Shown: positions 2,527 to 60,103 of the stretch, one piece after another | How positions within the stretch are numbered: position 1 is the first letter of the stretch | Layout: every line of letters begins with the position of its first letter | Assembly (NCBI RefSeq): GCF_000968135.1 | Contig: NZ_FO538765.1 | Location: forward strand, 372,001 to 436,000 | Direction of reading: 5' to 3' | Length of the DNA stretch: 64,000 nucleotides | Source: Magnetospira sp. QH-2 | GTDB lineage: Bacteria; Pseudomonadota; Alphaproteobacteria; Rhodospirillales; Magnetospiraceae | Notes under the pieces: model-generated | Told to the model about the DNA's origin: nothing | The model's database searches: none | Seen by the model: only the letters and a program-made list of their open reading frames with translations | Position numbers and translations under genes: made by a program

Positions 2527-3230
2527 CCATTGGCCTCACAGGCTTGTTTGGAATTTGGGCGGCGGTGGCATCTTTGGACCCCGCCGCCGCCCGGGAATCC
2601 GGTCCGGCCCCGCAAACCGAGGAGGTCCGCCTCGGCGATCGGATCTTTCACATCCCGAACACCTACCTGGAAAAATCGAGCCACATCACGGCGTGGCTGC
2701 GTTGGATGCCGGGGCTTGATGACGGCAGCCGTTCCATGCTGATGGAAATCGATGCCGATGAAGTCGCCGCTAGCGTGCAAGGCTACATCACCCGGAACCT
2801 CATTGGGAAAGAGAATATAAACTTGAACATCACGGTTCTGACGCCAATTGAGGTTGAACGATACACTTATCCCAGTTGGGTTCGAGAAATCGTGACCAAA
2901 ACAGAATCATACAAGCGACGCATTATTGAGCCGGATCCTGGAACTGGCTATTTCCGCGCCTACCGGGAAATCGAGTATGATCGGTCATGGGATCTTCTCA
3001 AGTTTGACCCCGACAATCCACCCCAGGGGTATGGGCACTTCAGCAACTGGGTCGCTGGGTGCAGAAAATACCATGCCACAACGGCAACAGGGGTCCTGGC
3101 CGGATGTTCGAGCTATACCCTTTTCGATAACATCTATGTCCACTTCCGTGTCCGCGAGGAAAACATCCATCACGCCGATGCGATCAGAGTGTTCCTGGAA
3201 AAATTGGTCGGTGGATGGGTGGTGAAATAG
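2502..3230 (+). CDS. Exported hypothetical protein, possible immunity partner
   Basis: This 242-residue protein starts at ATG 2502 (MVFRLRRLAIG), with GGAG 6 nt upstream; the longer frame from 2475 adds a tail without a ribosome site. Residues 1-31 are a signal peptide (ALA-type end in DPAAARES). The mature part begins with RLGDRIFHIPNTYLEKSS and has two Cys (in VAGCRKYHA and LAGCSSYTL) that could pair in the periplasm. No family is recognised. Translational overlap with the preceding toxin-like frame supports co-expression. Confidence 0.65.
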   Translation: MVFRLRRLAIGLTGLFGIWAAVASLDPAAARESGPAPQTEEVRLGDRIFHIPNTYLEKSSHITAWLRWMPGLDDGSRSMLMEIDADEVAASVQGYITRNLIGKENINLNITVLTPIEVERYTYPSWVREIVTKTESYKRRIIEPDPGTGYFRAYREIEYDRSWDLLKFDPDNPPQGYGHFSNWVAGCRKYHATTATGVLAGCSSYTLFDNIYVHFRVREENIHHADAIRVFLEKLVGGWVVK

Positions 3231-3294
3231 GGTGGCCTGGTGCGGCGATTATTCCCGATGACGGTGGTAGGGGTTGCTGGATTTAGTAATCAAA

Positions 3295-3330
3295 GGGGTC
3301 AGAATCAAGAATCAAAGGGGTCAGAGTAAA
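3295..3330 (+). repeat. RAYT-associated repeat (GGGGTCAGA), left side
   Basis: Two copies of AATCAAAGGGGTCAGA lie in tandem, the second continuing as GGGGTCAGAGTAAAT (3317-3331). The inverted version, TTTACTCTGACCCC, is at 3594-3607, with a further TTTTGACCCCATTGGTCC at 3617-3634. These repeats frame a RAYT transposase fragment, the usual context of such sequences. Confidence 0.65.
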
Positions 3331-3335
3331 TCGAT

Positions 3336-3593
3336 TTAGGCATTTGCCGCCTCCCGATATTTTTTTGACCTCAGATCCCCACCTCTGGGAATTGGCTCTA
3401 TACGCCTGTCCGTCATTTTTTTGATTTCACCCTTGAAGCGATCACCGCCGAGTACCCAGCCTTTGTTGGTGTTCAACCGGATCTCCTCCAGCGCTCGATC
3501 CGGAATGCCTTCCTTAAAAAGTCCCTGATACGCCTTTCGTCTTTGCCCGCCAGCATGGCCAAGGGTGTCGTAACAGGGGTGCCCGGTTATCAA
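3336..3593 (-). pseudogene. REP-associated tyrosine transposase (RAYT), C-terminal fragment
   Basis: The frame carries the typical tail of Y1/RAYT transposases: HPCYDTLG, RRKAYQGLFKEG, LEEIRLNTNKGWVLGGDRFK and a final PRGGDLRSKKYREAANA. The catalytic HUH/Tyr half is absent. The fragment joins directly to a GGGGTCAGAGTAAATTG repeat at 3593-3607, so a deletion fused the element's terminal repeat to the coding tail. It is not functional. Confidence 0.72.
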
Positions 3594-3639
3594 TTTACTC
3601 TGACCCCATTGGTCCATTTTGACCCCATTGGTCCGCCGA

Positions 3640-3965
3640 GATGTGATAAACAGATTCTTGGCAGCATGATCAAACAACGGAATACACCTTAAAAACGCTG
3701 CCAAGCTGTCCAACTATGTGGGACCACCTCAGATCGCCGTCTGAACGGCGAAAGCAGCCTTACCCGCCTCAACGGCAAGGGAAAGATGGAAACGGGACAA
3801 AAAGACGACCACTGACTTCGGCAAGTGCAAAGGTCACGATAAGACCGAGGTGTTGATGGAAGCAGTGGTCTTCGAAAATCCATTTGGGCCAAGGCAAAGT
3901 AGATGCCCGCAAATAGGCCGGATACATGTTAGCCGTTGTCCCCATAAATCCATTTTAAGCTTGCC
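3640..3965. other. Gap with no recognisable gene
   Basis: Short frames exist on both strands but none has protein-like composition or a ribosome site. It is probably decayed mobile DNA between the RAYT remnant and the Sel1 remnant. Confidence 0.4.
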
Positions 3966-4228
3966 TCAAAGGGGAGATCCATACATGCGCTTGAAATTTG
4001 AATCCAGCCGCCCACCAATGGCGAAAAACATATCCGCCGCATAGCGCTGTTGCCCCTCCGGTTCGTCCGCCAATGCCGCCTTTCGGTACCATTCCCGCGC
4101 CCTCGGTGGATCCTGCTCGATCCCGTGGCCCGCACCGATGAAATCCCCCATCAGGGTCATGGCCCGGGGCACGCCCGCCTCGGCGTGGCAGCGCATTGCC
4201 TCGACGATTCCGGCGTCACAATCCCGAT
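3966..4228 (-). pseudogene. Sel1-repeat protein fragment, 5' end cut by IS110 debris
   Basis: Read backwards from 4228 the frame gives a Cys-containing linker (RDCDAGIVEAMRC). A good Sel1 repeat follows (GVPRAMTLMGDFIGAG, REWYRKAALADEPEGQQRYA), then a short tail ending MYGSPL and a stop. The beginning of the gene is replaced by the IS110 C-terminal fragment at 4229. It resembles the Sel1 protein at the left edge of the window. Confidence 0.6.
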
Positions 4229-4366
4229 ATGAAGCAGAAGTACGACGCCTTGATCACCGCAGGAAAACCCCCCAAGGTCGCGCTCACCGCCATCATCCGA
4301 AAGCTCGGGATCCTTGCTAACGCCCTCTTGCGCGACAATCGTAAATGGGCCGAAATCAGTCCTTGA
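4229..4366 (+). pseudogene. IS110-family transposase, C-terminal fragment
   Basis: The last 45 residues of an IS110 transposase remain: GKPPKVALTAIIRKLGILAN and LLRDNRKWAEISP, the usual C-terminal helix and ending of the family. No upstream part is present. The 30 bases around its stop codon (AATCAGTCCTTGATCAAGAC...) recur at 10021-10046. Confidence 0.75.
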
Positions 4367-4390
4367 TCAAGACGGATACTGAAAACGTCC

Positions 4391-4530
4391 GATTTCGAGC
4401 CTGTGGCGACACATGCTTCGACAAGCTCAGCATGAGGACCCTTGAACTTTCAACATGTTAGCCTCACCCTGAGCTTGTCGAAGGGCGAGGCGGGCCGTAG
4501 GACAACACTTTTTCAGCAGCCTGTTAGGGC
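4391..4530 (-). repeat. REP-like palindromic repeat, intact copy
   Basis: A roughly 140-bp unit contains two facing CTTCGACAAGCTCAG / CTGAGCTTGTCGAAG arms and ends in CTTTTTCAGCAGCCTGTTAG. A second copy in the opposite orientation starts at 9901, but an IS110 element interrupts its end. This copy preserves the uninterrupted target, read on the minus strand as CAGGCTGCTGAAAAAGTG. Confidence 0.75.
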
Positions 4531-4667
4531 AATCTGATACGCCTCCCACTTCTCCCAAGCCCATCATGTCACCGCAATCCCTGAGCCAAGGAAAGGGTCT
4601 GATCGCGCCACATGGCCGATACCAGCTTTGCCAAATTCAAAGTGTTCCGAGGCATCGCCAAGGTGTA

Positions 4668-34741: not shown

Positions 34742-36517
34742 TTAAATCAAGTGCGACAGATCCAATCCTGGATATTCAATCGTCTTGATTGCCTCGAACA
34801 GCTCCGGCGCTCTTGGTGTCCTGTATGCTCGTGCTGAACTTGGGTCCTCTCGTCCGGTAAGCGCACTTCTTAAAGCCTCATCCCGGATGGAGCGGAACGC
34901 CGCTTCTTCGAAAGAATGTCGGAAGCCGTGCAATGGTGATACCCTTTTGGACGTGATCCCAACGGCGTCCAGGAGATTACGCATCCATTTCCCCATAGCT
35001 TCCGCCGAGTTGCTGAACAAACGCTTCTGCCCATCCGCTCGGACGGCCGCGACATATTCGAGAAATCCCATCGCGATGATCTGTGGGTGCAGAGGAACGA
35101 CGCGCCGACTCTGATCGTTCTTTAAGCTTCGCCCATCGCTCTCGCCAGTGTCCGCGTCATCTATATCTGAAACCCGGATGCACCAGACATCTTCATCCTG
35201 GAAAATGTCATCAACCGTCAGCACAGCGAATTCGCCTCGCCGGGCCCCTGAGAACAGCGCCAGCAAGACTGCCCAGAAGCGAAAGTTATGGCCGCTCCTG
35301 CGATAGGCCTTGAATGAATGATCACCTGGTTCTTTCCAGCGGCTCTGGCTCCTACAACCGGTGAACGCCACTGATGAAAAGATCCTATTCAATTGATCAG
35401 TAGTGAATGCGTCCCTCTTCCGCGTTTTCCGCTCTCTGCTTGAAACCGTGAAGCTGACGCCGCGCGCTGGGTTAAAGTCTTCCGGCACATAGGCATTCTT
35501 CGCAGCCCAATCAAAGAACTGCTCGATCGGTTTGAGTCGTTTTGCGTTCAGGATGTCACGTTTCTGCCTCTCGTCGGTATTCCCTGCACACCAAGCAGCG
35601 GCGACCCTGATAGGCAGATCACGGGTTTGTGGGCGGGTAGACCACTTGGGCCACAAGTTGCCGATGACATCTTTGAATTCGACGACGTCAGATTTGGAAA
35701 ACGAGCCAACGTTTTTTACTTCTCCGTAGCAGTCGACCAGCCAATTCAATGCGGTCGCTTTTTCACCGACAGACTTCTCCTTGATCCCGCTGGCGCGTTC
35801 CTCGTCCAGGAATGCTTTGATCAGCACAGTCATAGGCCTCTCTGCGCGGATCGCGGTGCTATCAGGCGACTGGGTCAGAGATGATCGCAGCGGTTTTTCA
35901 TTGCATTGCGCAAGTAGCGGGTCCGACGGCATATAGTCAAAGTCCCCTTCGGTGACGCGGGCAAGCCGCGCCTTTACGGCTGCCAGATGTCCCCGGGCCA
36001 CTGCGCGGCAAAGGTCGTGAAACTCTTCGCACTCATGATCGATGCTCTCTGGCGGAATGTCTTCGAAATGGAGCAAACCATCCACGTCGCACACCATTCT
36101 TCTGAAATCATCTGCCGCGAGCATATCGAGATAATCCTGTTTTGCCTCTTCGAGGAACTCGCGATGCTTCCGCGCCTTCTCCTTCACACTCATGTCGTCC
36201 GGGAGGTATTCGACCGCCACCGCTGGCTCATGATCCACGTAGTCCATCTCGACCACGAAGAGGCTTCGCACCAGTTCTTCAATCTTATCACGGTCTAGAT
36301 CCATGCCTCGTTTCCCCCTGACGGCGCGGAACAGCCTATCAGCCGCCCGCTGAGCGTCAAGGCGACGGCGTTTGGCTGTTTGACCATTGGTCGTCTTCAG
36401 GCTACGCCAGATCTCACGTCGACCGAACCGCTCCTGGAGGTCGCTGGGTATCGTGACACGGAAATGATAGATCGCACCGCGTCGGATCAGATTGCTCGCC
36501 AAAGGCATCGCCGTCAT
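34742..36517 (-). CDS. Tyrosine integrase of element A
   Basis: This 591-residue recombinase starts at 36517. The N-terminal domain (IRRGAIYHFRVTIPSDLQER) is of the DUF6538 type common in tRNA-targeting integrases. The catalytic domain has Arg in LFSGARRGEFAVL, HGFRHSF (HxxR) and a late Tyr in SARAYRTPRAP. It lies beside the middle tRNA-Glu repeat (36608), which places it at the right edge of element A. Confidence 0.88.
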   Translation of the reverse strand: MTAMPLASNLIRRGAIYHFRVTIPSDLQERFGRREIWRSLKTTNGQTAKRRRLDAQRAADRLFRAVRGKRGMDLDRDKIEELVRSLFVVEMDYVDHEPAVAVEYLPDDMSVKEKARKHREFLEEAKQDYLDMLAADDFRRMVCDVDGLLHFEDIPPESIDHECEEFHDLCRAVARGHLAAVKARLARVTEGDFDYMPSDPLLAQCNEKPLRSSLTQSPDSTAIRAERPMTVLIKAFLDEERASGIKEKSVGEKATALNWLVDCYGEVKNVGSFSKSDVVEFKDVIGNLWPKWSTRPQTRDLPIRVAAAWCAGNTDERQKRDILNAKRLKPIEQFFDWAAKNAYVPEDFNPARGVSFTVSSRERKTRKRDAFTTDQLNRIFSSVAFTGCRSQSRWKEPGDHSFKAYRRSGHNFRFWAVLLALFSGARRGEFAVLTVDDIFQDEDVWCIRVSDIDDADTGESDGRSLKNDQSRRVVPLHPQIIAMGFLEYVAAVRADGQKRLFSNSAEAMGKWMRNLLDAVGITSKRVSPLHGFRHSFEEAAFRSIRDEALRSALTGREDPSSARAYRTPRAPELFEAIKTIEYPGLDLSHLI

Positions 36518-36607
36518 CCCCCGCCCGTAGCACACGGACGTAGCAAAGCGGCTTCGAAAGCATCTGAATTGTCAGGGAGTTAAACCCCATCAATGGCTTA
36601 TCGGATT

Positions 36608-36654
36608 TTGGCGTCCCCTAGGGGATTCGAACCCCTGTTGCCGCCGTGAAAGGG
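36608..36654 (+). repeat. Middle att repeat: tRNA-Glu 3'-end copy
   Basis: The sequence matches 60027-60073 with one mismatch over 47 bp (first 42 bp identical), covering the CCA end, T arm, variable loop and half of the anticodon stem. It separates element A from element B. No complete tRNA is present here. Confidence 0.88.
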
Positions 36655-36760
36655 GGAAATAGCGTATTTTTGGGACATTCATGGACGGTCATGTATTAAA
36701 AAAATCAAATTAATTCATTTAGTTATAGTCCATTGCTATCCCCTTGTGTCCGGGAACGTA

Positions 36761-36781
36761 TTATGGGTAAAATATGGGTAC
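36761..36781 (+). promoter_or_regulatory. Integrase arm-type sites, att-proximal
   Basis: ATGGGTA occurs at 36763-36769 and 36774-36780, an 11-bp period. The same pair, in the same orientation, lies at 59963-59969 and 59974-59980 at the other end of element B. Confidence 0.55.
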
Positions 36782-36801
36782 GTTTTGAAAAGGGGAATTT
36801 G

Positions 36802-38130
36802 ATGGCCCGCACCGTTCGCAACGCAAAGCTGGACTCCCGCACGGCCCGGTTAAAATTGACCGCCCGGCGTGCGCCGTATTGGACCGTTCTCTCCAAAGGG
36901 GCGGCCCTGGGATACCGCAAGGGCGCCAAAGGCGGAACGTGGATTGCCCGCTTTCTCGATGATACGGGGACGCACCGTTATCAAGCCCTTGGCGCGGCGG
37001 ATGATGCCATGGACGCGGACGGCACCGTTTGCCTGTCCTATGCCGATGCCCAGCGCGAAGCGGATAAGTGGTTTCGAATTGCCGCCAACGGTTTCCAGGA
37101 TGATGCGCCCCGTTCCGGTTCGTATACCGTCAATGATGCGATGGCGGACTATCTGGCCGCGTACAGGCGCAAGGGCGGAAAATCCTTGGACCGCACGCAA
37201 TCGGCAATCGACGCGCATATCAATCCAACGCTGGGGGGCGTGCCTGTTTCCAAGCTGACAAAGCGCCGCGTAGAGCAATGGCTCGATGGCCTAGCCAATG
37301 CCGCCCCGATGGTTCGCACGGCCCCAGGGAAGCCTCAGAATCGCCGTGAGGCGGATAGCAGCACTGAGGGTGCCCGCCGCCGTAAATCCAGCGCAAATCG
37401 AATCCTAACGGTTCTCAAAGCCGCTTTGAATCATGCCTATGCCGATGGCAAGGTTTCCAGCGATGAAGCATGGCGAAACGTCAAAGCCTTTCGTGAGGTA
37501 GACGCGGCCCGCGTGCGTTATCTGAATGATGAGGAATCGCGCCGCCTTGTGAATGCCTGCACAGCTGATTTTCGCCCGATGGTGCAAGCCGCGCTTTTGA
37601 CCGGATGCCGCTATGGGGAAATTACCGCGCTCAAGGTTACGGACTACAGCGCGGACGCTGGCTCCCTGCATATTCGTATCAGCAAATCCGGCAAGCCCCG
37701 GCACGTTGTTTTGACGGATGAAGGGCGCGGTTTTTTTGACACCGCCACCGCTGGCAAGCCTGGAAGCGCCTATATATTCATTCGGCCCGATGGCGAGGCG
37801 TGGGGGCGCTCACACCAACAGCGCCCGTTCAATGCCGCGTGCAAGGTTGCCAAGGTTGAACCGCTCACCTTCCATGAATTGCGCCATAGTTACGCTTCCC
37901 GCCTTGTGATGAATGGCGCACCGCTGGCCGTCATAGCGGCCCAGCTAGGCCATAGCGACACGCGCATGGTGGAAAAGCATTATGGGCACCTATGCCCGAA
38001 TTACATTGCCGACACCGTGCGAGCTGCATTTGGCTCCCTTGGCGTGGTGGAACAAACCAACGTCAAGCCGCTGCGAAAAGCGGACAAAAAGCATTCAAGA
38101 GGCACTATATTCGTTACCGCTTCGGTCTGA
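36802..38130 (+). CDS. Tyrosine integrase of element B
   Basis: This 442-residue protein starts at ATG 36802 (MARTVRNAKLD), with AGGGGA 5 nt upstream; the longer frame from 36733 runs over the arm sites. A DUF4102-like/SAM-like N-terminal part is followed by the catalytic domain: Arg in LLTGCRYGEITAL, LTFHELRHSYASRL (HxxR), AAQLGHSDTRMVEKHYGHL (His and Tyr). It sits directly inside the middle att repeat and should act on the tRNA-Glu site. Confidence 0.95.
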   Translation: MARTVRNAKLDSRTARLKLTARRAPYWTVLSKGAALGYRKGAKGGTWIARFLDDTGTHRYQALGAADDAMDADGTVCLSYADAQREADKWFRIAANGFQDDAPRSGSYTVNDAMADYLAAYRRKGGKSLDRTQSAIDAHINPTLGGVPVSKLTKRRVEQWLDGLANAAPMVRTAPGKPQNRREADSSTEGARRRKSSANRILTVLKAALNHAYADGKVSSDEAWRNVKAFREVDAARVRYLNDEESRRLVNACTADFRPMVQAALLTGCRYGEITALKVTDYSADAGSLHIRISKSGKPRHVVLTDEGRGFFDTATAGKPGSAYIFIRPDGEAWGRSHQQRPFNAACKVAKVEPLTFHELRHSYASRLVMNGAPLAVIAAQLGHSDTRMVEKHYGHLCPNYIADTVRAAFGSLGVVEQTNVKPLRKADKKHSRGTIFVTASV

Positions 38131-40783: not shown

Positions 40784-42384
40784 CCCGAATTATTCATGAG
40801 TCTCCCTGGCATCGCAACGGCCACGGGTCCTCGGCCGGGTTGACGGCCTAATTTTGGTTTTGATTTTTCAGGCGTTTGGGGGTTGATCATCGGGGACTGA
40901 GGGGCGGCTCGCTGCCGCGGTTTTCACGGGCCCTGGGAGGCGACTTTCCCGGCCATGGCGATCAGGGGTGTTTTGTATGGATATGCCGTCGGCAAGGCGA
41001 CGGTTATGCGGGATTTGAGTTCCTCGATGCGTACGGCGATTTTGAGGAAAGACCGTCGCAGCGTCTCGAAGGTGGCGTTTTTCCAGATTGATTTCCGGGG
41101 CGCGGCGTTTCGCAGTTTAAGCAACAGCCAATAGGCTCCGGTATGGAGGAACAGTCGGAACTGGTTGGCCTCCCAGCGGTGACACGAGGTGCGGTCGGAC
41201 TTGGTGTAGAGTTTGTGCTCCTTGATCATGTTCTCCATTTTGCCCCGCGCGCAGTAGACCTTTTCATAGAGGGTTTTGGCCCGGCCTGCCAGATTGGTGA
41301 CGATGAAACGGATGTCGGAACCTTTTGCGGTGGCCTCGACCCGGGCGATAACGGTTCGTTCCCGCTTCCAGCTCTTGGCCGCGTAGGCCGTTTGAAAGAA
41401 CCGGCGTATCTTTTCCTTGCCTGATGTTGCCCGGCGCACGGCCACGTCCTCGCCCCAGGGTTGGCCGATTTCCTTGAGCCGCCCATTGGAGGACAGGCCG
41501 AAGATATAACCGCAGCCTCGGCTTTCCAGCCAGTCCATGACCTCGGGCGTGCCGTAATGGCCGTCCCCGCGCACGGTGATATGAACCCGGGGCCAGTTGT
41601 TCAGGATGCGGGTAACGACATGGCGCAAGACCGTCGCGGCCTCCGCGCCCGAAGGCCGCTTGCCGGGCCGCAACAGGGACAGGATCGGCTTTCCGGTGGC
41701 GGCGTCATAGATATGGATCGGCTGGAAGCAGTAATCATCGTAATGGCTGTTGAACAAGGCCAACTGTTGGCCGCCGTGAACCGCATCGCCGGTGTCGTCG
41801 ATGTCGAGCGTGATGTGTTCGGGAACGCGGGCGAAGCTTTCGCAAAACAGATCGATCATCGACAAACCCATGCGGGCCAGTTGCCGCCAGGTCGGCGCGT
41901 TCTCCAACCGCGACAGGGTCGGCTGGCTCATCAAGTCCCGGCCCGTCTCCGACAGCCGCCCGCAGGCCAGCTTGAAGGCCGGATCGACGCGCAGGGCGTC
42001 CAGATCGTCGCAATCCTCATAGCCGCAGGCAATGGCGAACATCCGCGCCCGGATCATATCGTCGAAACCATGGATCACACTCCCCGGATCGCGGGTGTCG
42101 GGAAGATGCGAGGCCAAAAGATCGGCCAAACCGAGGTCACGTTCGATCTCGCGCAGAACCAGAACGCCGCCGTCGGATGACAAACGGCCGCCGTCGAAAC
42201 GGGCGTGGATTTCCTTGCCGCCGACGGGTGACAAACCGGGCAGATATGGGCTAAATTCCTTCATGGCGACCGTAGGTGAAAATGGTGTCGTGGTTTTGGC
42301 TTGGACACCATAAACTCTACGATAATTCAACCATTTAAGCTACGTTCGCCACCCTTTTCGGCCACGGATCGTGAATAATTCGGG
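40784..42384 (-). mobile_element. IS1380-family element, 1601 bp, CTAG target duplication
   Basis: Terminal inverted repeats begin CCCGAATTATTCA at both ends. CTAG is present at 40780-40783 and 42385-42388. The transposase is on the minus strand, and no other gene is present. Confidence 0.92.
40924..42264 (-). CDS. IS1380-family transposase
   Basis: This 446-residue DDE enzyme starts at 42264 (MKEFSPYLPGLSPVGGKEIH). The N-terminal region has SSDGGVLVLREIERDLGLAD; the catalytic Asp is in ITLDIDDTGDAVHG; a second Asp in ITVRGDGHYG; the late Glu in ENMIKEHKLYTKSDRTSCHR. It looks intact and possibly active, having inserted precisely without loss of host sequence. Confidence 0.93.
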   Translation of the reverse strand: MKEFSPYLPGLSPVGGKEIHARFDGGRLSSDGGVLVLREIERDLGLADLLASHLPDTRDPGSVIHGFDDMIRARMFAIACGYEDCDDLDALRVDPAFKLACGRLSETGRDLMSQPTLSRLENAPTWRQLARMGLSMIDLFCESFARVPEHITLDIDDTGDAVHGGQQLALFNSHYDDYCFQPIHIYDAATGKPILSLLRPGKRPSGAEAATVLRHVVTRILNNWPRVHITVRGDGHYGTPEVMDWLESRGCGYIFGLSSNGRLKEIGQPWGEDVAVRRATSGKEKIRRFFQTAYAAKSWKRERTVIARVEATAKGSDIRFIVTNLAGRAKTLYEKVYCARGKMENMIKEHKLYTKSDRTSCHRWEANQFRLFLHTGAYWLLLKLRNAAPRKSIWKNATFETLRRSFLKIAVRIEELKSRITVALPTAYPYKTPLIAMAGKVASQGP

Positions 42385-46830: not shown

Positions 46831-49074
46831 ATGGACTTGATCGCCCACCGCCTCATTCCGTGGCTTATTTCCATCGCAGTATTCCTTGCTCCGGGGGCAG
46901 GTTTATCCGCCGAGGCTTTGCGTGATGTGGTCCTGCAACTGCGCTGGCTGCACCAGTTCCAGTTCGCCGGGTACTACATGGCGGCGGAGAAGGGCTATTA
47001 CCGCGAGGCCGGTCTGAACGTCCTCTTCCATCCCGGTGGACCGGGGAAACCGGGACCGGTGCGCGAGATCCTTTCCGGGGCCGCGCTGTTCGGTACCGAT
47101 GGGACAGGGCTGGTTAAAAACCGCACCGACGGCGAACCGGTGGTGGCCCTGGCAGCGATCTTGCAGAAATCACCTTTGGTGTGGTTGGTTCGGGGCGATA
47201 GCGGGATCCATACCATCCAGGACCTGGCCGCCAAGCGGCTGATAATGCTGCATCCCCCGACCCGTACACCGGAGCTGTTGGCGGCTTTTTCCCAGGAAGG
47301 GATTGATATCGATGGTTTGGATATTCATCCCACCACCTTTGATGTTCAAGACGTGATCGACGGTCGTTTCGATGCCATCGCTTCCTATAGCAGCAACGGT
47401 CCCTGGGCCATGGCCCAGCAAGGCATCTGGCCGCGCACCATCGGACCGGAAATGGCGGGCATTCAGTTTTACGGTGACGTGCTGTTCACATCGCAGACGT
47501 TGATCGACGAGGACCCGGATCTGGTCAACGCCTTCCTCGACGCGAGCTTGAAGGGATGGGCCTATGCCTTCGATAACGTCGACGAGGTGGCGGAATTCGT
47601 TCATCGCAAGTACGCACCGGAAAAGCCGCTGGACCACCTGAAATTCGAAGGCCGCGAGCTGCGAAAGCTGGCGGCACCGGACCTCGTGCCAATCGGCGAT
47701 ATGAACCCAGGGCGTTGGACCCATATCGCCGAAACCTATGCGGGGCTGGGAATCATCCCCAAGGACTTCGATCTTGACGGTTTCCTGTACGATCGCAACC
47801 CGATGATCGAACAGGAAATCTATTACCGAACCATTCTGTTCGCCGGTTTCACGGTTCTGCTGGTGGGCCTGATCGCCCTGTGGATTCTCAATTTGCATAT
47901 GACTCTGCGGCGGGAGTATCGCCATAAGCTGCTGGCGGAAGCCGCCCTCAGCGAAAGCCAGCGAACCTTGGACACCCTGCTCAGCAACATGCCGGGGATG
48001 GCCTATCGGTGCCTGGAGCCGGCTCACAAGGAGATGCGTCTGGTCAGTCGTGGGGCAAAGGAATTGACGGGATATGGGCTGATGGAACTGGTCGGCCATG
48101 GTACTCAAGAATACAGCGACCTGCTTGATCCCGGCGATCGGGTTCTGGTCCGGGCCACGATTCTATCCGCCCTGGCGCATAAGGAACCCTTCCAGATTTC
48201 CTACAGGATTAAGACCGCTTCCGGGCAGCAGAAATGGGTCTGGGAAAAAGGCCGGGGGATCTATCGGAATGATGGATCCCTGGAAGTCATTGAAGGATTC
48301 GTGACGGATGTTACCGACCGGGAGCGGGCCGAGGAACAACTGCGTCAGGCTCAGAAAATGGAGGCCCTGGGTAATCTGGCCGGGGGCATCGCCCATGATC
48401 TCAACAACATGTTGCTGCCAATCCGATCCCTGACCGCGCTGATGCTCAAACAGCCCGATGAGACCGACCGCAATGCCTTGCGGATGGAAAAAATCCGTCA
48501 AGCCACCGATCGGGCGACAACCCTGGTCACGCGCATTCTGTCCTTCAGCCGAAAGGAAGAGGGCGGCTTCAAGGAGGAGCGCATCGATCTCAATACCATG
48601 CTGCTCAACGCCATGGATCTCCTGGGCTCGACCCTGCCGACCACGGTGGATCTGAAATTGAGCGTTGCGCCGGATGTGGGGCAGGTCATGGGTGACCTCA
48701 GCCAGCTAACGACCATGGTGCTGGATCTGGCCAGCAACGGCGTGGATGCCATGGAGGGACGCCCTGGAATCCTTGCAATCTCCTTGGCCCGAGAAACCGT
48801 CACCAAGTCCGCCACGGGCACGGTCCATGACCTGAGCTCGGGGGTTTATGCCCGCCTGAGCATCAAGGATTCGGGCAAGGGCATTGGGCCGGAGTACATC
48901 GACCGCATCTTCGATCCGTTTTTCACCACCAAGGAAGTTGGAGCGGGAACCGGTCTTGGGTTGGCCACCGTCCATGGTATCGTCAGCCATCACATGGGGG
49001 CCGTCCACGTTGAAAGTGAGTCGGGCCAGGGTGCTGAATTCATCGTCTATCTGCCCTTGGCGGACGATTCCTAA
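46831..49074 (+). CDS. Hybrid sensor: NMT1/THI5-like domain, PAS, histidine kinase
   Basis: This 747-residue protein has a signal peptide, then a periplasmic NMT1/SsuA-like ligand-binding domain ([20 protein letters not shown]; about residues 30-320). A membrane helix ([20 protein letters not shown], about 335-355) follows, then a PAS domain (375-490) and a kinase core with the phospho-acceptor His in [14 protein letters not shown] box [10 protein letters not shown]1 IKDSGKGIG and G2 GTGLGLATV. The ligand is probably a small metabolite. No receiver is attached. The CheY-like and HD-GYP genes nearby are likely partners. Confidence 0.93.
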
Positions 49075-49472
49075 ATGTAGCGGCAGGCCACGTGGGCTTC
49101 CTGATCTTCGCCTGTCATATGCGGGATGAGGCGGTTCAGCACCCAGGTTTCCAGGGTCTGGCCCATCTCATCGACAAAGCCCAGAAGATCCTCCCGCCAC
49201 AGGGCCCGTACTTCGCCCTCGAGCACGTGGTGCTGTTTCCTGTGTTCCTCAAGCTTGGAACAGCCGCGTTGTTCGAACAGGAGTTCCTCGTCCTTGAAGT
49301 GCTGCTGGGTATACAGCAACAGGGCGTCGAAGGCCTGTTTGAGGATCTGTTCCTCCTTGTGCTGGTCCACCGCATCGATCAGGAAATTTGCCAGATCGAG
49401 CAGTTGCCGGTGTTGGCTGTCGATCAGGTCGTCGCCTAGTTCAAAATCGGGATTCCAGTCGATCATGGTCAT
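49071..49472 (-). CDS. Bacteriohemerythrin
   Basis: This 133-residue four-helix bundle binds O2 at a diiron site. Ligands are in SQHRQLLDL, QHFKDEELLFEQRG, EEHRKQHHVLEGEV and HMTGED. The start at 49472 overlaps the HD-GYP stop (ATGA), with GGAG just upstream, so the two are co-translated. It may deliver or sense oxygen for the signalling cluster. It converges with the sensor kinase, overlapping by 4 bp. Confidence 0.93.
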   Translation of the reverse strand: MTMIDWNPDFELGDDLIDSQHRQLLDLANFLIDAVDQHKEEQILKQAFDALLLYTQQHFKDEELLFEQRGCSKLEEHRKQHHVLEGEVRALWREDLLGFVDEMGQTLETWVLNRLIPHMTGEDQEAHVACRYI

Positions 49473-50488
49473 TTGGCCGTCTCCGCAAAAGCCGTTGTCC
49501 ATTCGAAGTCGTGCTGGCGGAACAGCATTACGCAAACGCCGACCACATCGTCGTCGAAACCGCTGCCGCGCCCCTCGTTGAGAACCTTCAGAGCGGTCTC
49601 GATCCCCAGGGCTGCCCGGTAAGGGCGGTGTCCGGTGATCGCCTCGGCCACGTCGGCCACTGCGATGATCTTCGATTCCAGCAAGAGGTCCGGCTCTTTC
49701 ATGCCCAAGGGATAGCCGCTGCCGTCCAGCCGCTCATGATGTTGTCGAACCATGTCCATCACCGGCCAGGGCAGGGGAACGTCGCGCAGGATGGTGGCTC
49801 CGGCGGATGTGTGAGTTTTCAGAAGCTCGTATTCCTGGCTGCTGATTCTGCCAGGCCGGGTGAGAATTTCCGCAGGGATATGGATTTTACCGATGTCGTG
49901 AATCATCGCCCCCATCTCCAATCCGGTCAGGCGGTCCTGCGCAAGACCCATCTCGCGCCCGATGGCCAGGGACAGTTCGGCGACCCGGGATTGATGACCG
50001 GCGGTGTAGGGGTCACGGCTCTCTATGGTTCGGGCCAGAGCCCGCACCGTCTGCACCAAAGCCTCGTTGGTGGCTTCTTGGGAGCGTTGGAATTCCGCCC
50101 GGGCGCGATCAAGGTCGGTGATGTCGGTACCGGTAAAGAGCAAGGGGGAATCCGACCCGTCTTCCGCCGACAGGAGACGAATTTTCCAATGCAGTGTCCG
50201 CTCGGTCCCGTATTTGGAAACCCACTCGCCAGTTCCGTGGATCTGTTCGCGCGGATCGCCAGCCAAAGGGAGGTTGTCACGCATGCTCTTGCCTTGGGCG
50301 CCCGCCATGAAGTGCCAGAGTTGGCGACCGACCAGTTCCGAGGAATCGATCAGTAGCGACTCCTGTGCAGCCTTGTTGGCGTAGCGAATAGTTCCATCGC
50401 TGGCGAGGATCATCACAACGTCGCCAATGACATCGAAGGCGGCCCACAGGGCGGGCATCTGTTCCGACTGACGGAAGGCGTCCATCAT
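49469..50488 (-). CDS. PAS domain HD-GYP phosphodiesterase
   Basis: This 339-residue protein has an N-terminal PAS domain (FDVIGDVVMILASDGTIRYA; residues 15-130) and a HD-GYP domain with GAMIHDIGKIHIP, HTSAGATIL and RQHHERLDGSGYPLG. It should hydrolyse cyclic di-GMP. It is coupled to bacteriohemerythrin by a 4-bp overlap. Confidence 0.95.
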   Translation of the reverse strand: MMDAFRQSEQMPALWAAFDVIGDVVMILASDGTIRYANKAAQESLLIDSSELVGRQLWHFMAGAQGKSMRDNLPLAGDPREQIHGTGEWVSKYGTERTLHWKIRLLSAEDGSDSPLLFTGTDITDLDRARAEFQRSQEATNEALVQTVRALARTIESRDPYTAGHQSRVAELSLAIGREMGLAQDRLTGLEMGAMIHDIGKIHIPAEILTRPGRISSQEYELLKTHTSAGATILRDVPLPWPVMDMVRQHHERLDGSGYPLGMKEPDLLLESKIIAVADVAEAITGHRPYRAALGIETALKVLNEGRGSGFDDDVVGVCVMLFRQHDFEWTTAFAETAK

Positions 50489-50599
50489 GGCGCTTTCATT
50501 GAAATCATCGGTTCCTCCGCAATTTCGTGTATATTATCCATTGGATTGACCATTCCTGTCAAAACTCTCGTGACGAGTGGTGGAAATAAGGGCGAGGCC

Positions 50600-51844
50600 A
50601 TGGCACAGACAAAATCCAAGGACGCCTTCATTCAGCAACTCAAATCGCTGCTGGCCAGCCACCGCGCGGTCATGGAAGGGCGGATCTTTCAGCTCGATCT
50701 CTCGGCGGTGAAAGAGGACCTGGGCGAGAAGTGGGACAAGATCGCCAAGAGCATCGACCGGATCGTGGTCAGTATTCTAGATCTGCGGCTGTCCGCTTCC
50801 GATGTTTTCATGAAGCAGGACCCGACCCATTATCTAGTCGCCTTCGCCACCACGGATTCCGCCCGTGCCCGGCTGAAATTGGCCTTGGTGGCACAGGAAG
50901 TGGGGCAGCGGGTGCTGGGGCTGTCCTGGCACGAGAACGCGGGACTGGTCAAATCCCTGACCCTGGACGAAAACGATGAAATCAAGGTCGAGGATTACGA
51001 AGTCGACAAAAGTGCCATCGAGGAGACCAAGCCATCCGCAACGGCCAAGGCTCGCGGCGGTGCCCAACTGTTTCCCGGTCTGGATCATGTGGCGGAAGAC
51101 GAGGGAAAGATCGGCTTCATGTTCCGGCCCATGTGGTACGTCAAACGCAAGGTCATCACGACCTATCTTTGTGTACCCGCCATTACCAGCGAGAATTCCA
51201 GTTTCCGCTGCGGCTACAACGTCCTGCCCAAGCCCAGCGACCCGAAACAGATCGCGTTTTTGGACAATGCCACCGCCAAACGGTTGAGCCAGGAATTCAA
51301 GTCCCTGGCGCAAAAGAATATGGCGCCGTTGCTGACCATGCCGGTGCACTACGAGACCCTGTTCCAGCCACAGGCCCGCATTGCCTTCATCAAGACCTGC
51401 CGGGAGCACCTGGACAAGAACAGGAAACATGTGGTGCTGGAAATCGTCGGACTGCCCGAAGGCATTCCCTTTTCCCATCTTCAGGAAATTACCCAGGCGG
51501 TGCGGCCCCTGTGCCGTGCGGTGATGGGACGGGTCCGGCGCGGCGTGGTCAAGCTGCCGTTCCATCGCGAGGCGGGCCTGCATGGAGTCGGCATCGACCT
51601 GAGCGTGGGGGGCCATTCCGAAGACACGATTATTCAGGAATTCGATGCCTTCGTTTCCGTCGCGGCGGAAAACGACCTGCATACCTACGTGCATGGGATC
51701 GGATCACTGGCCCAGAGCACGGCGGCGGTCTGCGCCGGGTTCGACTATGTGGACGGCTATGCCATCGCCAACGTGGCCGACGCGGCCCGGGATATCGAAG
51801 TCTACGATATCCGCGATCCCTACAAGAAACGGCTGGATCGTTGA
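50600..51844 (+). CDS. Degenerate EAL-like protein
   Basis: This 414-residue protein starts at 50600 (MAQTKSKDAFIQQLKSLLAS). The N-terminal half is helical and unrecognised. The C-terminal half has the EAL-like pattern VHYETLFQPQARIAFIKTCR, KHVVLEIVGLPEGIPFSHLQ, GVGIDLSVGG, NDLHTYVHGIGSLAQ and FDYVDGYAIAN, but the metal-binding EAL, DDFGTG and KxD motifs are replaced. It is probably a non-catalytic cyclic di-GMP or protein-binding module. Lies between the two kinases of the cluster. Confidence 0.75.
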   Translation: MAQTKSKDAFIQQLKSLLASHRAVMEGRIFQLDLSAVKEDLGEKWDKIAKSIDRIVVSILDLRLSASDVFMKQDPTHYLVAFATTDSARARLKLALVAQEVGQRVLGLSWHENAGLVKSLTLDENDEIKVEDYEVDKSAIEETKPSATAKARGGAQLFPGLDHVAEDEGKIGFMFRPMWYVKRKVITTYLCVPAITSENSSFRCGYNVLPKPSDPKQIAFLDNATAKRLSQEFKSLAQKNMAPLLTMPVHYETLFQPQARIAFIKTCREHLDKNRKHVVLEIVGLPEGIPFSHLQEITQAVRPLCRAVMGRVRRGVVKLPFHREAGLHGVGIDLSVGGHSEDTIIQEFDAFVSVAAENDLHTYVHGIGSLAQSTAAVCAGFDYVDGYAIANVADAARDIEVYDIRDPYKKRLDR

Positions 51845-51852
51845 GCTTGGTA

Positions 51853-52215
51853 CTACAGTAGTTCGTTGACCACGGCCATCAGGTCCTCGTCGGTGAAGGG
51901 CTTCACCACGACGCTGGTGGCGCCGTATTCCTTGGATAATTCCAGGAAGTCCAGGTTGCGGGTCCGCCCACCGCCTGAAATGGCAATTACCGGCAGGTTG
52001 GGGGCATCCGCCTTGAGTTCGGAGATGGTCTCGATGCCTTCCTTGCGCGGCATGATGATATCGGTGATCACCAGATCCACTTTGTTGTCACGGAACACCG
52101 CCAGGCCTTCTTCTCCGTTGGCGGCTTCGAGAACCACATGGCCTTCGCTCTCGAGAATCTCTTGAATGGTGAAACGGGCCAGTTCTTCATCGTCGATGAC
52201 TAAGATGGTTGCCAT
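51853..52215 (-). CDS. CheY-like single-domain response regulator
   Basis: This 120-residue receiver has the acidic pocket LVIDDEE, the phospho-acceptor Asp in LVITDIIMPRKEG, the Ser in VIAISGGGR and the Lys in VVVKPFTDED. No output domain. It lies 9 bp downstream of the MASE1 kinase and is its probable target. Confidence 0.95.
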   Translation of the reverse strand: MATILVIDDEELARFTIQEILESEGHVVLEAANGEEGLAVFRDNKVDLVITDIIMPRKEGIETISELKADAPNLPVIAISGGGRTRNLDFLELSKEYGATSVVVKPFTDEDLMAVVNELL

Positions 52216-52224
52216 GGTTGTCCT

Positions 52225-54690
52225 CTATTCGCCGGTTTTTGTTGTTCTCGGAATTAGTATATCAAAAATCGCCCCCTTGCCGACTTCACTTTCCACTGTA
52301 ATAGCCCCACCGTGTTTGGCGATGACCCCATAAGCCATGGATAGGCCAAGGCCGGTGCCTTCACCCACTGCCTTGGTGGTGAAGAAGGGATCGAACAGGC
52401 GCTGCAGGATCTCTTCGGACATGCCGCAACCGTTATCGGATACGGCAATCCGGACGTAGTTACCCGGGGACAGGTCCGTTGTGCGGCTGTGGTGTTCCGG
52501 CCCCATGGTCATGGAGTTCACATTGAATCTGATTTCTCCCACATTACCCGCTATGGCATCCACGGCATTGGTGGCCAGATTGATCAGTACCGTTTCCAAC
52601 TGCGAGACATCGGCCTCGATCAGACTGTTGTCGGGATCCAGGTCCGCCTGAACCGTGACTGTCGATGGCAGGGTCGATTGCAGCAGCTTCACGGTGTCTC
52701 GAACCAGGTCGTTGACCGCAATCACCTTGAACTCCGATTCCTGGTCGTCCCGTCGGCTGAATGCCAGGATCTGGGAAATCAGCTTCTTGGCGATATTGGC
52801 GGCCTCGATCACCTTTGCCAGGCGCGCCTTGTCGCGGCTGTCATTGGGGAGTTGCTTGAGGGTCAGGCCGGTCAGGGCGATGATCGGCAGCAGCATGTTG
52901 TTCACGTCATGGGCGATGCCGCCGGCCAAATTGCCCACGGCTTCCATTTTTTGGGCTTGGCGGACCGTCTTCTCGGCCTCGATGCGCTCGGTAATGTCGG
53001 TGAAAGAAGTGACACCGCCGATAATTGCGTCATCTTTTTTGATGGGTTGGACCGCGTAACGGACCCGCAAGGGCGTGCCGTCGGCTTTCCAAAACACCTC
53101 GTTTTCGATGGTGATGGAGCGCCCTTCGCGTACCGCCCGCAGAGCATGGCAGTCGGATTTCCGCATGAGGGCGCCATCGGCATTCGTATGGTGGATGAGT
53201 TCATGCATGGACTGCCCGACCAGCTTCTCCGGGCCTTCGTATCCCAGGAGGTGGGCCGCGGCGGGATTGGCCAGAGTACAGATCCCGTCGGTGTCGATGG
53301 CATAGATACCATCGCTGGTGCTGGCCAGGACCATGCTCAGCATTTCCTCGCTCTCTTTTAAGTCTTGGTCCGTCTTCTTTTTTTGGCTGATGTCGGTGGC
53401 GACTTCCATGCGCACATAGCGACCGTCCAGCCATTCAATGGCACGATCCCGGCAGTCGAGCCAATTGCCGGTAATGGTGTTCTGGAATTCCCAAACATAG
53501 GTGGGAGCGGGGGTTCCATCCGCATTCAGCAAGTACTTGTTGGTACAGAAATCACAAGGTCCGGTCTGGCCCTGTTGCAGAACTTTCCAGCAGGTCTGCC
53601 GTTCCACGTCCCCAAACAGGCGCCGGGCGGAGTCGTTCAGGAACAGCAGTTCATAGGTCTCCATGTCGGCCACATAGACAACGGCATCCAGGCTGTTCAT
53701 GACCCGGCGGAAGCGGTTCTCGGATTCCACGGCCTGACGATGAGCCTCTTCATCCACGCGGGCCTCGGCCAATTGGTCACGGGCCCGGTTGCGCTCGGCC
53801 AGGCCCGCCGCCAGGGTCATCACCGAAAGCGACATGACACCAATGAAGAATTGCACCTGGATCAGGGCCAGATTGATGTCGTCGCTGAAAAACGGGCCGG
53901 TTCGTAAGGAAGTGGCGACAATGGCGAAGGCGGCCACCACGGCCACGCAGAAAAACGCAAACCAGTCCTGCAAGCGCGTGGCGGCCCATAGGGTGACCGG
54001 GATCAGGGCAAAGACAAAAGAGCCATGGAAGGGGTTGTCTTCCCGCATGCCAAAGGCCAGGGCGGCGATAAGCACCAGCAAGGAGAAGGCGGCCAGGCTT
54101 TCGCCTCGGTTGTCCCATCGGTTTGCGCCTTCCCCGGGGAAGGCCAGACTGAGAATCAGCGGGGCCAGGACGACCACCCCGACCGCATCGCCGGTCCACC
54201 AGGTCACGAAGGTATAGGCGTAGTTTTCCCAGGGCAGGAAGCCTGCAACGGCGAGTCCGGTGACACCGAACAGGGCGCTGATGAACTGCCCGAAGACCAC
54301 CGCGATCCAGAAAAAATGCAGCAGGTTGCTCAGTTCGCCAAACGGGTGGGTGGTTCCGGTGAGCCGCCGCACCGCCCAGGCGGCCCCGACCGTGGACAGC
54401 ACATCGCCCAGTCCGTTGGCGCTGGCCGAGCCAAGGGCGGCCAGAAGGGTAGCGAGCGATTGCATGTCGAGATAGGCCCAGGCATTGCCTGCAAAGGCTC
54501 CCAGGAACACGCCGGGCCAGATCCGGGGCCCCCTGATCATGGCCCAGGCGAACATGATCCCCGATGGGAGCCAGACGGCGGTGACATTGCCAGGTGGAAT
54601 GGCGAGGGTCTGGCCGATCCGTGCGGTGACGACGTAGGCCGTCGCCACGGCCAAGATTTCGAGTAAGCTTCTATCGACCCTCAGACCCAT
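52225..54690 (-). CDS. MASE1-PAS-PAS histidine kinase
   Basis: This 821-residue membrane kinase has an N-terminal MASE1 sensor with about eight helices ([20 protein letters not shown] through residue 300). Two PAS domains follow (about 325-445 and 455-580; the first has a CDFC pair in [11 protein letters not shown]). The kinase core has the His in [14 protein letters not shown] box [10 protein letters not shown]1 VSDNGCGMS and G2 [11 protein letters not shown]. The start is ATG 54690, with AGGTG upstream. The CheY gene follows. The transmitter resembles that of the NMT1 kinase at 46831, so the two probably share ancestry. Confidence 0.95.
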
Positions 54691-54759
54691 CAAACGCTAC
54701 ACCTAACGAATACAGGGCCTTAAATTATACAGTTTTTATTGGAGGGATTGAAGCTGTGA

Positions 54760-54993: not shown

Positions 54994-55410
54994 AATGACG
55001 CGACGTCAAAGACGGGGTGTGGCAACGGGTGCAAGAGCGGCACGGTACTCTGGACGCCAGGACAAAGCCATTCCAGCGTCACAAAGACCTGCGCTACTTG
55101 CTGACCCGAGCGGGTCGAGTGTGGTGTTTGCAGGTCCATACGAAGCGCGACCGCCGGGAGATCGACGAACTGAGCGAGTTGTTGAACCGCAACAGGTAGA
55201 TAACCCTTGCCCAGGGGCGGACTCGGTCACTGATTGCCAAGATTGTACCAACGCCGAACGAGCGTGAAGACGCTCTGTCGATCGACCTGCACGGGGATTT
55301 GGCAAGCAGCTTGGCCTTGGCAAAAAATAAAGGGAAACCGGTTATGACCACCGGTTTCCCCCAAACTGAGATTCAATTGGTAGCGGAGGAGAGACTTGAA
55401 CTGCCAGGGG
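54994..55410 (+). pseudogene. Large serine recombinase, C-terminal remnant
   Basis: After an in-frame TAG at 55197, the same frame reads RSLIAKIVPTPNEREDALSI, DLHGDLASSLALAKNKG and QTEIQLVAEERLELP. This is the typical tail of large serine recombinases (LIxRIVLTP...IDLHGDLAxIL...QxxMVAG). The part before the stop (RTKPFQRHKDLRYLLTRAGR, REIDELSELLNRNR) may belong to the same gene but is less certain. No catalytic domain remains. An IS30 fragment abuts it on the other strand. Confidence 0.55.
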
Positions 55411-56176
55411 GAATGGGGATCGCAAAAGAAGGCGCGCACAGGCAGGCTCTTGTGGTCGTAGAACTCGCCGCCGTTGTCCAGGGTGACGGTTTTCCGAGCC
55501 CGTTTGGGCGCCCGATTGAGCAAACCGGCCAGCGCCTCGGCGGTGGTGCGGGCGGTTTTGTCTGGAAGGGGCGCGGTGAGCAGCAGCCGTGACCGGCGCT
55601 CGATGCAGGTGAGCAGACAGGCCCGTTGCTTGCGGAAATGCACCAGATCGGCCTCCCAATGGCCCGGCTCGGCGCGCAGATGGGCCTTGGTCGGGCGCAT
55701 ATGGATCGGCATCCGGTCGGGGATCGGCGGATCGCGCCGCCCTTTTCGGGCCCGTCGTCCGCGACGGGATTTGGCCTGCGGCAACAGGCGGTGGAGCTTC
55801 CGCCGCCGCCCGTGGGGCCCGTAGATCCAGGCATAGATTGTCTCGGCGCTGACGGTATGCTCTGATCCTTCGAGCTTGAGCCTTCCGGCGATCTGCTCCG
55901 GGCTCTGTTCCATAGCAAGTGCATCCAGGATGTGGGTTTTCAGAGGGCTCAAGCGCTCGATCTTCGGCAGGCGGCGTTTGCGCGCCCAGGCCATGCGCTC
56001 GGCCATGGCGGCTTGTATCCGGCCCGGGGCAGCCGGTTTGTACTAATTCCCGGCCAATGGTCGAGGCCGAGCGGGCCCATCAACCGCCCAATGGCCCGTT
56101 GAGATTTACCGTCTGCATGCAGACGGTAAATCTCGCATCTTTCGTCCAAGCTGACGTGTGCATATCTCTGTCCCAT
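55401..56176 (-). pseudogene. IS30-family transposase, frameshifted and 3' truncated
   Basis: The N-terminal helix-turn-helix is in one frame (MGQRYAHVSLDERCEIYRLH, SQRAIGRLMG). A second frame has SASTIGREL. A third continues with MAERMAWARKRRLPKIERLS, SAETIYAWIYGPHGRRRKLH, the DDE core PGHWEADLVHFRKQ and VTLDNGGEFYDH. It ends at HSPWQ (55401), where the family continues with RGSIEN but another sequence begins. At least two frameshifts make it inactive. Confidence 0.82.
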
Positions 56177-56643: not shown

Positions 56644-57492
56644 GCTCAGGACCCATAAAAGGGATTCCCAATAGTCGGTGGACATGATTCCCTTCCCTGG
56701 AATTTTAGGGAGGGGAAAGCCGATGCAGAGCCATCATTTCTGGTTGTCCGACAAACAATTCGAACGCCTTCAACCGTTGCTGCCGAACAAAACAAGAGGC
56801 GTCCCGCGCGTCGATGACCGGCGGGTGATCAGCGGCATCATCCATGTTCTTCGCCACGGCTTGATGTGGCGTGACGCGCCCGTCGCCTATGGACCGCACA
56901 AGACCCTGTACAACCGCTTCGTCCGTTGGAGCGAGGCCGGAGTGTTCGACCGGATCTTCGCCACCCTGGCCGCCGAAAGCACGGCCACCCATACGGTGAT
57001 GATCGACGCCACCCATCTCAAGGCCCACAGGACGGCGGCGAGCCTGCTCAAAAAGGGGCTGTTCCCCGCCGTATCGGGCGCACCAAGGGCGGCCTGAATT
57101 CGAAACTGCATGCCGCCTGCGATGCCGATGGAAAGCCCCTGATCCTGCTGCTGACCGAAGGACAAGTCAGCGACTATCGCGGCGCCGACACCATGCTCCC
57201 TGCATTCCCTGATGCCGACGACCTGATCGCCGACAGGGGATACGACAGCGACCGTTTCCGCCAGGCCCTGCTTGATCTCGGCATCGAGCCCTGCATTCCA
57301 GGTCGCTCGAACCGCAAAGAGGAAATCCTTTACGATAAAGCCCTCTACAAGCAGCGAAACTTGATCGAGCGCATGTTCGGTCGGCTCAAGGACTGGCGGC
57401 GTATCGCCACCCGCTACGACCGTTGCGCCCATACCTTCATGAGCGCAATCTGCATCGCCGCAACCGTCATCTTCTGGTTATGAGTCCTGAGC
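56644..57492 (+). mobile_element. IS5-family element (IS427-like), 849 bp, CTAG target duplication
   Basis: Terminal inverted repeats GCTCAGGACCCATAA (56644-56658) and TTATGAGTCCTGAGC (57478-57492) match with one mismatch. CTAG flanks both sides (56640-56643 and 57493-57496). Confidence 0.92.
56723..57483 (+). CDS. IS5-family transposase, two frames joined by frameshift
   Basis: OrfA starts at 56723 (MQSHHFWLSDKQFERLQPLL), with AGGGAGGGG upstream, and contains DDRRVISGIIHVLRHGLMWR and the first Asp in TVMIDATHLKAHR. OrfB continues with RRIGRTKGGLNSKLHAACDA, the second Asp in LIADRGYDSD and the Glu in LIERMFGRLKDWRRIATRYD. The shift lies at AAAAAGGGG (57051-57059), a likely slippery site, as usual in the IS427 group. 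It looks capable of making a fusion transposase. Confidence 0.88.
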
Positions 57493-60026: not shown

Positions 60027-60027
60027 T

Positions 60028-60103
60028 TGGCGTCCCCTAGGGGATTCGAACCCCTGTTGCCGCCGTGAGAGGGCGGTGTCCTAGGCCTCTAGACGAAGGG
60101 GAC
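60028..60103 (-). tRNA. tRNA-Glu (anticodon CTC)
   Basis: The 76-nt gene on the minus strand has the acceptor GTCCCCT / AGGGGAC, D arm, anticodon stem CCGCC-CTCTCAC-GGCGG with anticodon CTC, T arm CAGGGGTTCGAATCCCCT-type and an encoded CCA. Its 3' end faces the islands and forms their attachment site. Confidence 0.97.

Follow-up and report, generated by a model that had tools for sequence, protein, structure and literature searches.

A probable integrative element of 23.4 kb (36608–60073) in the genome of Magnetospira sp. QH-2 carries six signaling genes. Three of their products, a histidine kinase, a single-domain receiver and an EAL-like protein, form a unit that recurs across the order, and the six genes are no random assortment. 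The element lies in the 64-kb stretch of DNA that was analyzed (the window), which is part of a 4.02-Mb contig (NZ_FO538765.1) in a genome of two contigs. We read the cargo, with moderate confidence, as one multi-component circuit linked to cyclic di-GMP (c-di-GMP), in which two kinases would signal through the receiver to a pseudo-enzyme, with an additional arm formed by a hemerythrin and an HD-GYP enzyme. Because the core genes co-occur and both kinases fall in the clade of kinases found at such loci, sequence comparison supports the view that the genes may act as one signaling unit combining the hemerythrin, the HD-GYP enzyme and the receiver.

According to the list of open reading frames and a Pfam search of the window, all six genes named in the preliminary description of this DNA are present at 46831–54693 with intact frames:

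46831–49074, plus strand: kinase with NMT1, PAS, HisKA and HATPase domains (PF09084, 1.9e-39; PAS_3, HisKA, HATPase_c); 13-residue H-box; in the clade of module kinases
49071–49472, minus strand: stand-alone bacteriohemerythrin (PF01814, 2.1e-8) with seven diiron ligands, H21, H58, E62, H77, H81, H118 and D123
49469–50488, minus strand: predicted PAS-HD-GYP phosphodiesterase (HD_5, 1.7e-34; PAS_4, 5.2e-11) with the canonical motifs HDIGK and HHERLDGSGYP
50600–51844, plus strand: degenerate GGDEF-EAL-like protein, with fold matches to LapD GGDEF-EAL and catalytic positions apparently replaced
51853–52215, minus strand: single-domain CheY-like receiver (PF00072, 7.4e-26) with phospho-acceptor D52 and GGGRTRNLDF after beta-4
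52225–54693, minus strand: MASE1-PAS-PAS histidine kinase (PF05231, 4.6e-37; PAS, HATPase_c); 13-residue H-box; upstream of the receiver on the same strand

The EAL-like reading frame opens at TTG 50546, with ATG 50600 as the likelier start, and that of the MASE1 kinase has an ATG at 54690. The start of the hemerythrin gene and the PAS-HD-GYP gene overlap by 4 bp on the same strand, the coordinates bearing out an overlap claimed earlier. The NMT1 kinase and hemerythrin genes are convergent and also overlap by 4 bp. A 111-bp gap separates the divergent starts of the PAS-HD-GYP gene (minus) and the EAL-like gene (plus), while the EAL-like and receiver genes converge with 8 bp between them. Alignment and translation showed that the hemerythrin keeps all of its iron ligands and the HD-GYP protein its signature motifs. 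The genome as a whole is rich in hemerythrins, with 23 matches, 21 of them above the Pfam cut-off.

We infer the phosphotransfer and binding steps, the oxygen signal and the output as follows. Of the two membrane-bound kinases, one combines an NMT1-type outer binding domain with PAS and the other MASE1 with two PAS domains; the single receiver would take phosphate from each. Once phosphorylated, it would dock on the neighboring, seemingly catalytically dead GGDEF-EAL-like protein and switch it, and the latter would act as a c-di-GMP- or protein-binding effector, not as an enzyme. The hemerythrin, co-made with the PAS-HD-GYP enzyme, may signal oxygen or redox state to that enzyme and so set local c-di-GMP. 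The predicted output is an oxygen-dependent choice of lifestyle or motility. If true, this is a defined chain of kinase, receiver and pseudo-enzyme that separates the reading of c-di-GMP from its chemistry and is linked to an oxygen binder, in a genus that is probably magnetotactic and whose life depends on oxygen gradients.

Recurrence of the core genes and their kinase clade

The survey covered 317 genomes of the order, in which the genus is represented by one genome and the family by three. Relatives of the EAL-like protein occurred in 137 of these genomes at E 0.001, many of them matching through the EAL half only, and relatives of the receiver in 59 at E 1e-25. Neighborhoods were compared at 41 loci, 21 chosen by the EAL-like protein and 20 by the receiver. 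The first set comprised the 18 top-ranked genomes outside the family and other than QH-2 itself, genomes G066 and G142, and locus L065 from the family; G066 and G142 were chosen after their neighbors had already been seen, and G181, G115 and genomes of lower rank were passed over. The second set was taken by search rank, mostly one locus per genome (G166 twice), omitting stretches already included. Because several genomes belong to the same genus, some of the loci are not independent.

A receiver of the same type was found within 3 kb at 17 of the 21 EAL-chosen loci and a kinase scoring at least 200 bits within 5 kb at 18; both were present at 15, or at 13/19 when G066 and G142 are left out. 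The receiver-chosen loci had a kinase in 14/20 cases, an EAL-like gene in 10/20 and both in 9/20. Hemerythrin genes occurred at four of the EAL-chosen loci and HD-GYP genes at none, compared with two each at the receiver-chosen loci. The gene orders recorded with these partners (HK, kinase; REC, receiver; Hr, hemerythrin) were:

HK-REC-EAL-EAL2-Hr: L045, L046 and L047
HK-REC-EAL-Hr: L053
HK-HD-GYP-EAL-REC-REC: L140 and L142

An SG(G/S)GR stretch, usually SGGGRTRNLDF, was common to 24 aligned receivers (the window's and 23 from other loci). The seven hemerythrins aligned from loci with the kinase–receiver–EAL-like core (the module) keep the full set of seven ligands and have an RL(I/V)PHM stretch in common. 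Hemerythrin relatives at E 1e-22 were present in 12 of the 317 genomes, at 14 non-self places, five of which are in module loci; the stretches around the other nine contained neither a receiver at 80 bits nor an EAL-like gene (0/9).

Both window kinases are related to the kinases of the module. Among 58 transmitter-like places in the QH-2 genome, the MASE1 kinase, itself apart, matched the NMT1 kinase best (45%, 225 bits), the next place reaching 38% and 152 bits, and the likeness of the two transmitters noted earlier (GGIAHD(L/V)NNMLLP) is real. A tree was calculated for 57 transmitters, including 27 of the 56 other transmitter-like places of the genome (those collected as loci and long enough). 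In this tree both window kinases fell in a 15-row clade (support 87/95) with 11 module kinases and those of L048 and L051, and none of the 27 other QH-2 kinases tested was in it. NN(M/L)LLP was present in 10 of the 13 non-window members, and its proline in all 13; outside neighbors have NNLLT, NNLLG and similar. A receiver of at least 80 bits lay within 1.5 kb of 8/13 clade kinases, as against 0/15 non-clade kinases of the same loci and 1/27 other QH-2 kinases. For an EAL-like gene within 1.5 kb, the corresponding counts were 10/13, 3/15 and 0/27. Chance co-occurrence of the core genes was rejected on the locus counts and on these clade versus non-clade controls.

At the DNA level, the kinship of the kinases appears as a 149-nt inverted repeat (48304–48452 and 52853–53001, 73% alike), which corresponds to the paralogous phospho-acceptor regions in opposite orientation. 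Elsewhere in the QH-2 genome, a chromosomal kinase gene precedes one for a single-domain receiver that shares 42% identity with the element's receiver (L075, 8859–12406), without an EAL-like gene.

Several results weigh against treating the six genes as one system. The fork of the clade (87/95) is incompletely supported, and the well-supported set (98/96) includes two other QH-2 kinases. The survey of co-occurrence for which the preliminary description had asked shows a recurrent core, with a hemerythrin near it in 6/41 loci, three from one genus, and an HD-GYP gene in 2/41, both from one genus. An HD-GYP gene directly beside a hemerythrin gene was not seen outside the window, the nearest being about 2.4 kb away (L212) among the nine non-module places. 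L065, in a metagenome-assembled genome (MAG) named Magnetospira of the same family, encodes the closest relative of the EAL-like protein (47%) and has neither a receiver nor a clade kinase nearby.

It is conceivable, though unlikely, that two separate systems lie side by side, the MASE1 kinase, receiver and EAL-like protein being ancestral and the NMT1 kinase with the hemerythrin and HD-GYP genes an unrelated arrival. Indeed, neither the HD-GYP protein nor the NMT1 kinase belongs to the core that recurs, not one of the 41 other loci showed NMT1, and the genes are arranged in convergent and divergent units, not in one operon. Nevertheless, the NMT1 kinase has a transmitter of the same clade as the module kinases, loci with two kinases of at least 200 bits recur (L054, L060, L146 and L154), and the hemerythrin itself recurs beside the EAL-like protein. 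A single circuit with two kinases is the reading we prefer. No description of this gene combination was found in searches of open-licence literature.

The probable integrative element

The element has the hallmark of a tRNA-integrated mobile element, direct repeats of a tRNA end together with a tyrosine integrase:

36608–36654, no strand assigned: left attachment-site copy, 47 bp of the tRNA-Glu 3′ end, 46/47 identical to 60027–60073
60027–60073, no strand assigned: right attachment-site copy, inside the complete tRNA-Glu(CTC) gene (60028–60103, minus strand)
36733–38130, plus strand: tyrosine integrase of the element, beside the left repeat (PF00589, 1.5e-24), with the catalytic motifs GCRYGE and HELRHSY and the C-terminal tyrosine in HYGHL

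A 26-bp stretch of the repeat, searched with up to three mismatches, had no copy in the window beyond these two (mean of 0.00 in 100 shuffles). The signaling cluster is located between tRNA-derived attachment sites, as first described. The element further contains a gene for a DUF3987 protein as well as three transposase regions (40924–42330, 55227–56006 and 56678–57483). A second integrase, of the DUF6538 type (34745–36535, minus strand), has its end some 70 bp from the left repeat, next to a stretch of lower GC that contains resolvase and HATPase genes; this region is probably a separate neighboring element.

The 41 loci were searched with the window's two integrases, within the sequence stretches taken. 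An integrase of either type was near module genes at two loci (L050/L067, counted as one, and L144) and at none of the other 39; integrases of other types would escape this survey because only these two were used as queries. At L050/L067, a DUF6538-type integrase is about 100 bp from the receiver and EAL-like genes, while the window-type integrase at L144 is about 7 kb away. In L067, from a Rhodospirillaceae MAG, the integrase (891–2534) is of the neighboring element's type and sits directly beside the receiver/EAL-like pair (2636–4577); direct repeats clearly bounding this cluster were looked for and none was seen. tRNA genes are near module genes in L061 and adjoin the receiver in L148 and L149. 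Carriage between attachment sites, which had been called unusual, is uncommon but not unique, with one other adjacent case and one 7 kb off. The opposite expectation, that the genes usually occupy conserved chromosomal positions and are not found together in islands, fits in part: the core genes usually do co-occur, yet 39/41 loci show no window-type integrase in the stretches taken.

In plasmid DNA, no record covered 80% of the cluster, the best rows listed covering 3%, and matches to the element were short, of transposon or tRNA size. Viral contigs searched via the EAL-like protein gave 95 pattern matches and no relatives; the phage collection was searched with the integrase only. The idea of a near copy of the cluster in other DNA was rejected, since plasmid DNA and, via the EAL-like protein, viral contigs yielded none. 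Distant relatives of the EAL-like protein (23–25% identity) occurred in 3 of 72,556 plasmid records. A distant relative (24.6%), on the Azospirillum lipoferum plasmid AZO_p3 (L187), lies within a hydrogenase gene cluster.

We consider it quite unlikely that these are ordinary chromosomal signaling genes trapped between two tRNA-like repeats, a decayed relic with no mobile element of its own. Three transposase regions interrupt the element, the conserved right-flank gene in the six relatives examined has no adjoining tRNA-Glu at which an unoccupied site could show, and a close plasmid or viral copy was not found. However, near-identical repeats (46/47), an intact integrase adjoining one of them and a right repeat placed in a complete tRNA gene are the classic layout of integration. 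If the cargo is one circuit, then a whole second-messenger decision circuit, more than one enzyme, is carried by an integrative element, and it may be a portable switch for the oxygen response.

Fold and apparent loss of catalytic residues of the EAL-like protein

Modeling indicates that the EAL-like protein has an EAL-barrel fold, and its catalytic residues appear to be lost. The full-protein model, built from seven sequences, matched solved GGDEF-EAL dual domains, with LapD (3pjw) at the top (Foldseek E 4.2e-11). It aligned to LapD over residues 44–404 with Z 15.5, and the VIA comparison to the LapD EAL domain gave Z 15.6. As reference we used ten canonical EAL domains from QH-2, in which seven positions that we take to be catalytic are all invariant or nearly so. 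In the profile alignment only E299 is kept; the glutamate of EAL, the Asn, both Asp, the Lys and the second Glu are replaced. Such substitutions suggest that the protein is likely without phosphodiesterase activity.

The Pfam EAL match is below the cut-off (16.6 versus 31.3 bits); among 12 members of the family, nine have an EAL match at E ≤1, the best at 2.2e-4. A degenerate GGDEF half before the EAL domain is probable, because the full model matches GGDEF-EAL dual domains and the top rows for the N-terminal half modeled alone are mostly GGDEF and nucleotide-cyclase chains. The label "degenerate EAL protein" given earlier thus stands as to degeneracy and is to be corrected for the probable GGDEF half and the sub-threshold match. 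Solved structures searched by sequence yielded none, the protein being too distant.

These assignments face four difficulties: the full model is of low confidence (mean pLDDT 64), the N-terminal half alone (pLDDT 72.8) had no match at E ≤0.001 (best 3.6e-3), no GGDEF Pfam match was found among the 12 family members, and the catalytic residues are mapped by a weak profile alignment (E 0.0041, probability 8.3%). On the QH-2 chromosome, two distant relatives of the EAL-like gene lie in tandem (L073 9363–11991, C1:1604362–1606990; 22–23% identity over the N-terminal half), with neither a module kinase nor a module receiver in the 20 kb examined.

That the protein is instead an enzyme or metal site of a new kind, with a pocket that is remodeled and not dead, seems improbable: H268, E270, E299 and D351 are invariant and H383 near-invariant across the 12 members, a diverse set that lacks the classical ligands, but it is the weak alignment that places these residues in the pocket, their conservation could be structural or serve binding partners, and metal and substrate are hypothetical. 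Only tentatively can the whole be proposed as an unnamed alphaproteobacterial system, with a pseudo-GGDEF-EAL family having this remodeled pocket, a dedicated kinase clade and receiver type (GGGRTRNLDF), a hemerythrin as oxygen input, and packaging at least once, perhaps twice, in integrative elements.

Comparison with known systems

LapD has periplasmic, transmembrane and HAMP parts before its GGDEF domain, and FimX has extra N-terminal domains. These degenerate GGDEF-EAL receptors are the best fold matches of the modeled EAL-like protein, and their enzymatic motifs are likewise lost; in the comparison with the ten canonical domains, by a weak alignment, the EAL catalytic residues appear to be gone. 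At about 414 residues, the EAL-like protein has no room for the membrane and periplasmic parts of LapD or the additional domains of FimX. Only about 25 residues precede the first modeled helix, counted from ATG 50600, so that it is not LapD proper.

The second arm resembles the Bhr-HD-GYP fusion of Ferrovum sp. PN-J185, which is reported to be active only when reduced, with hemerythrin as sensor and HD-GYP as output in one fused protein (PMC9388753). The seven diiron ligands and the HD-GYP signature are present in the cluster. In QH-2, however, the two proteins are encoded by separate genes that overlap by 4 bp, and a PAS domain is present in the HD-GYP protein itself.

The Hno network of Shewanella oneidensis has two kinases (HnoK/HnoS) acting on the shared c-di-GMP regulators HnoB, HnoC and HnoD (PMC6335343, PMC8846402). 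Both systems would have two kinases feeding shared regulators, which is proposed for the cluster, as well as EAL and HD-GYP-type parts and gas-responsive control of c-di-GMP. The Hno components are an active receiver-EAL response regulator (HnoB), a degenerate HD-GYP protein and an H-NOX sensor. In the cluster, by contrast, a 120-residue receiver stands as a separate protein with no active EAL domain attached, the EAL-like protein seems inactive and appears to have lost its catalytic residues, the HD-GYP protein looks active, and the gas binder is a hemerythrin. By analogy, the circuit would work like the Shewanella Hno network and is not a member of it.

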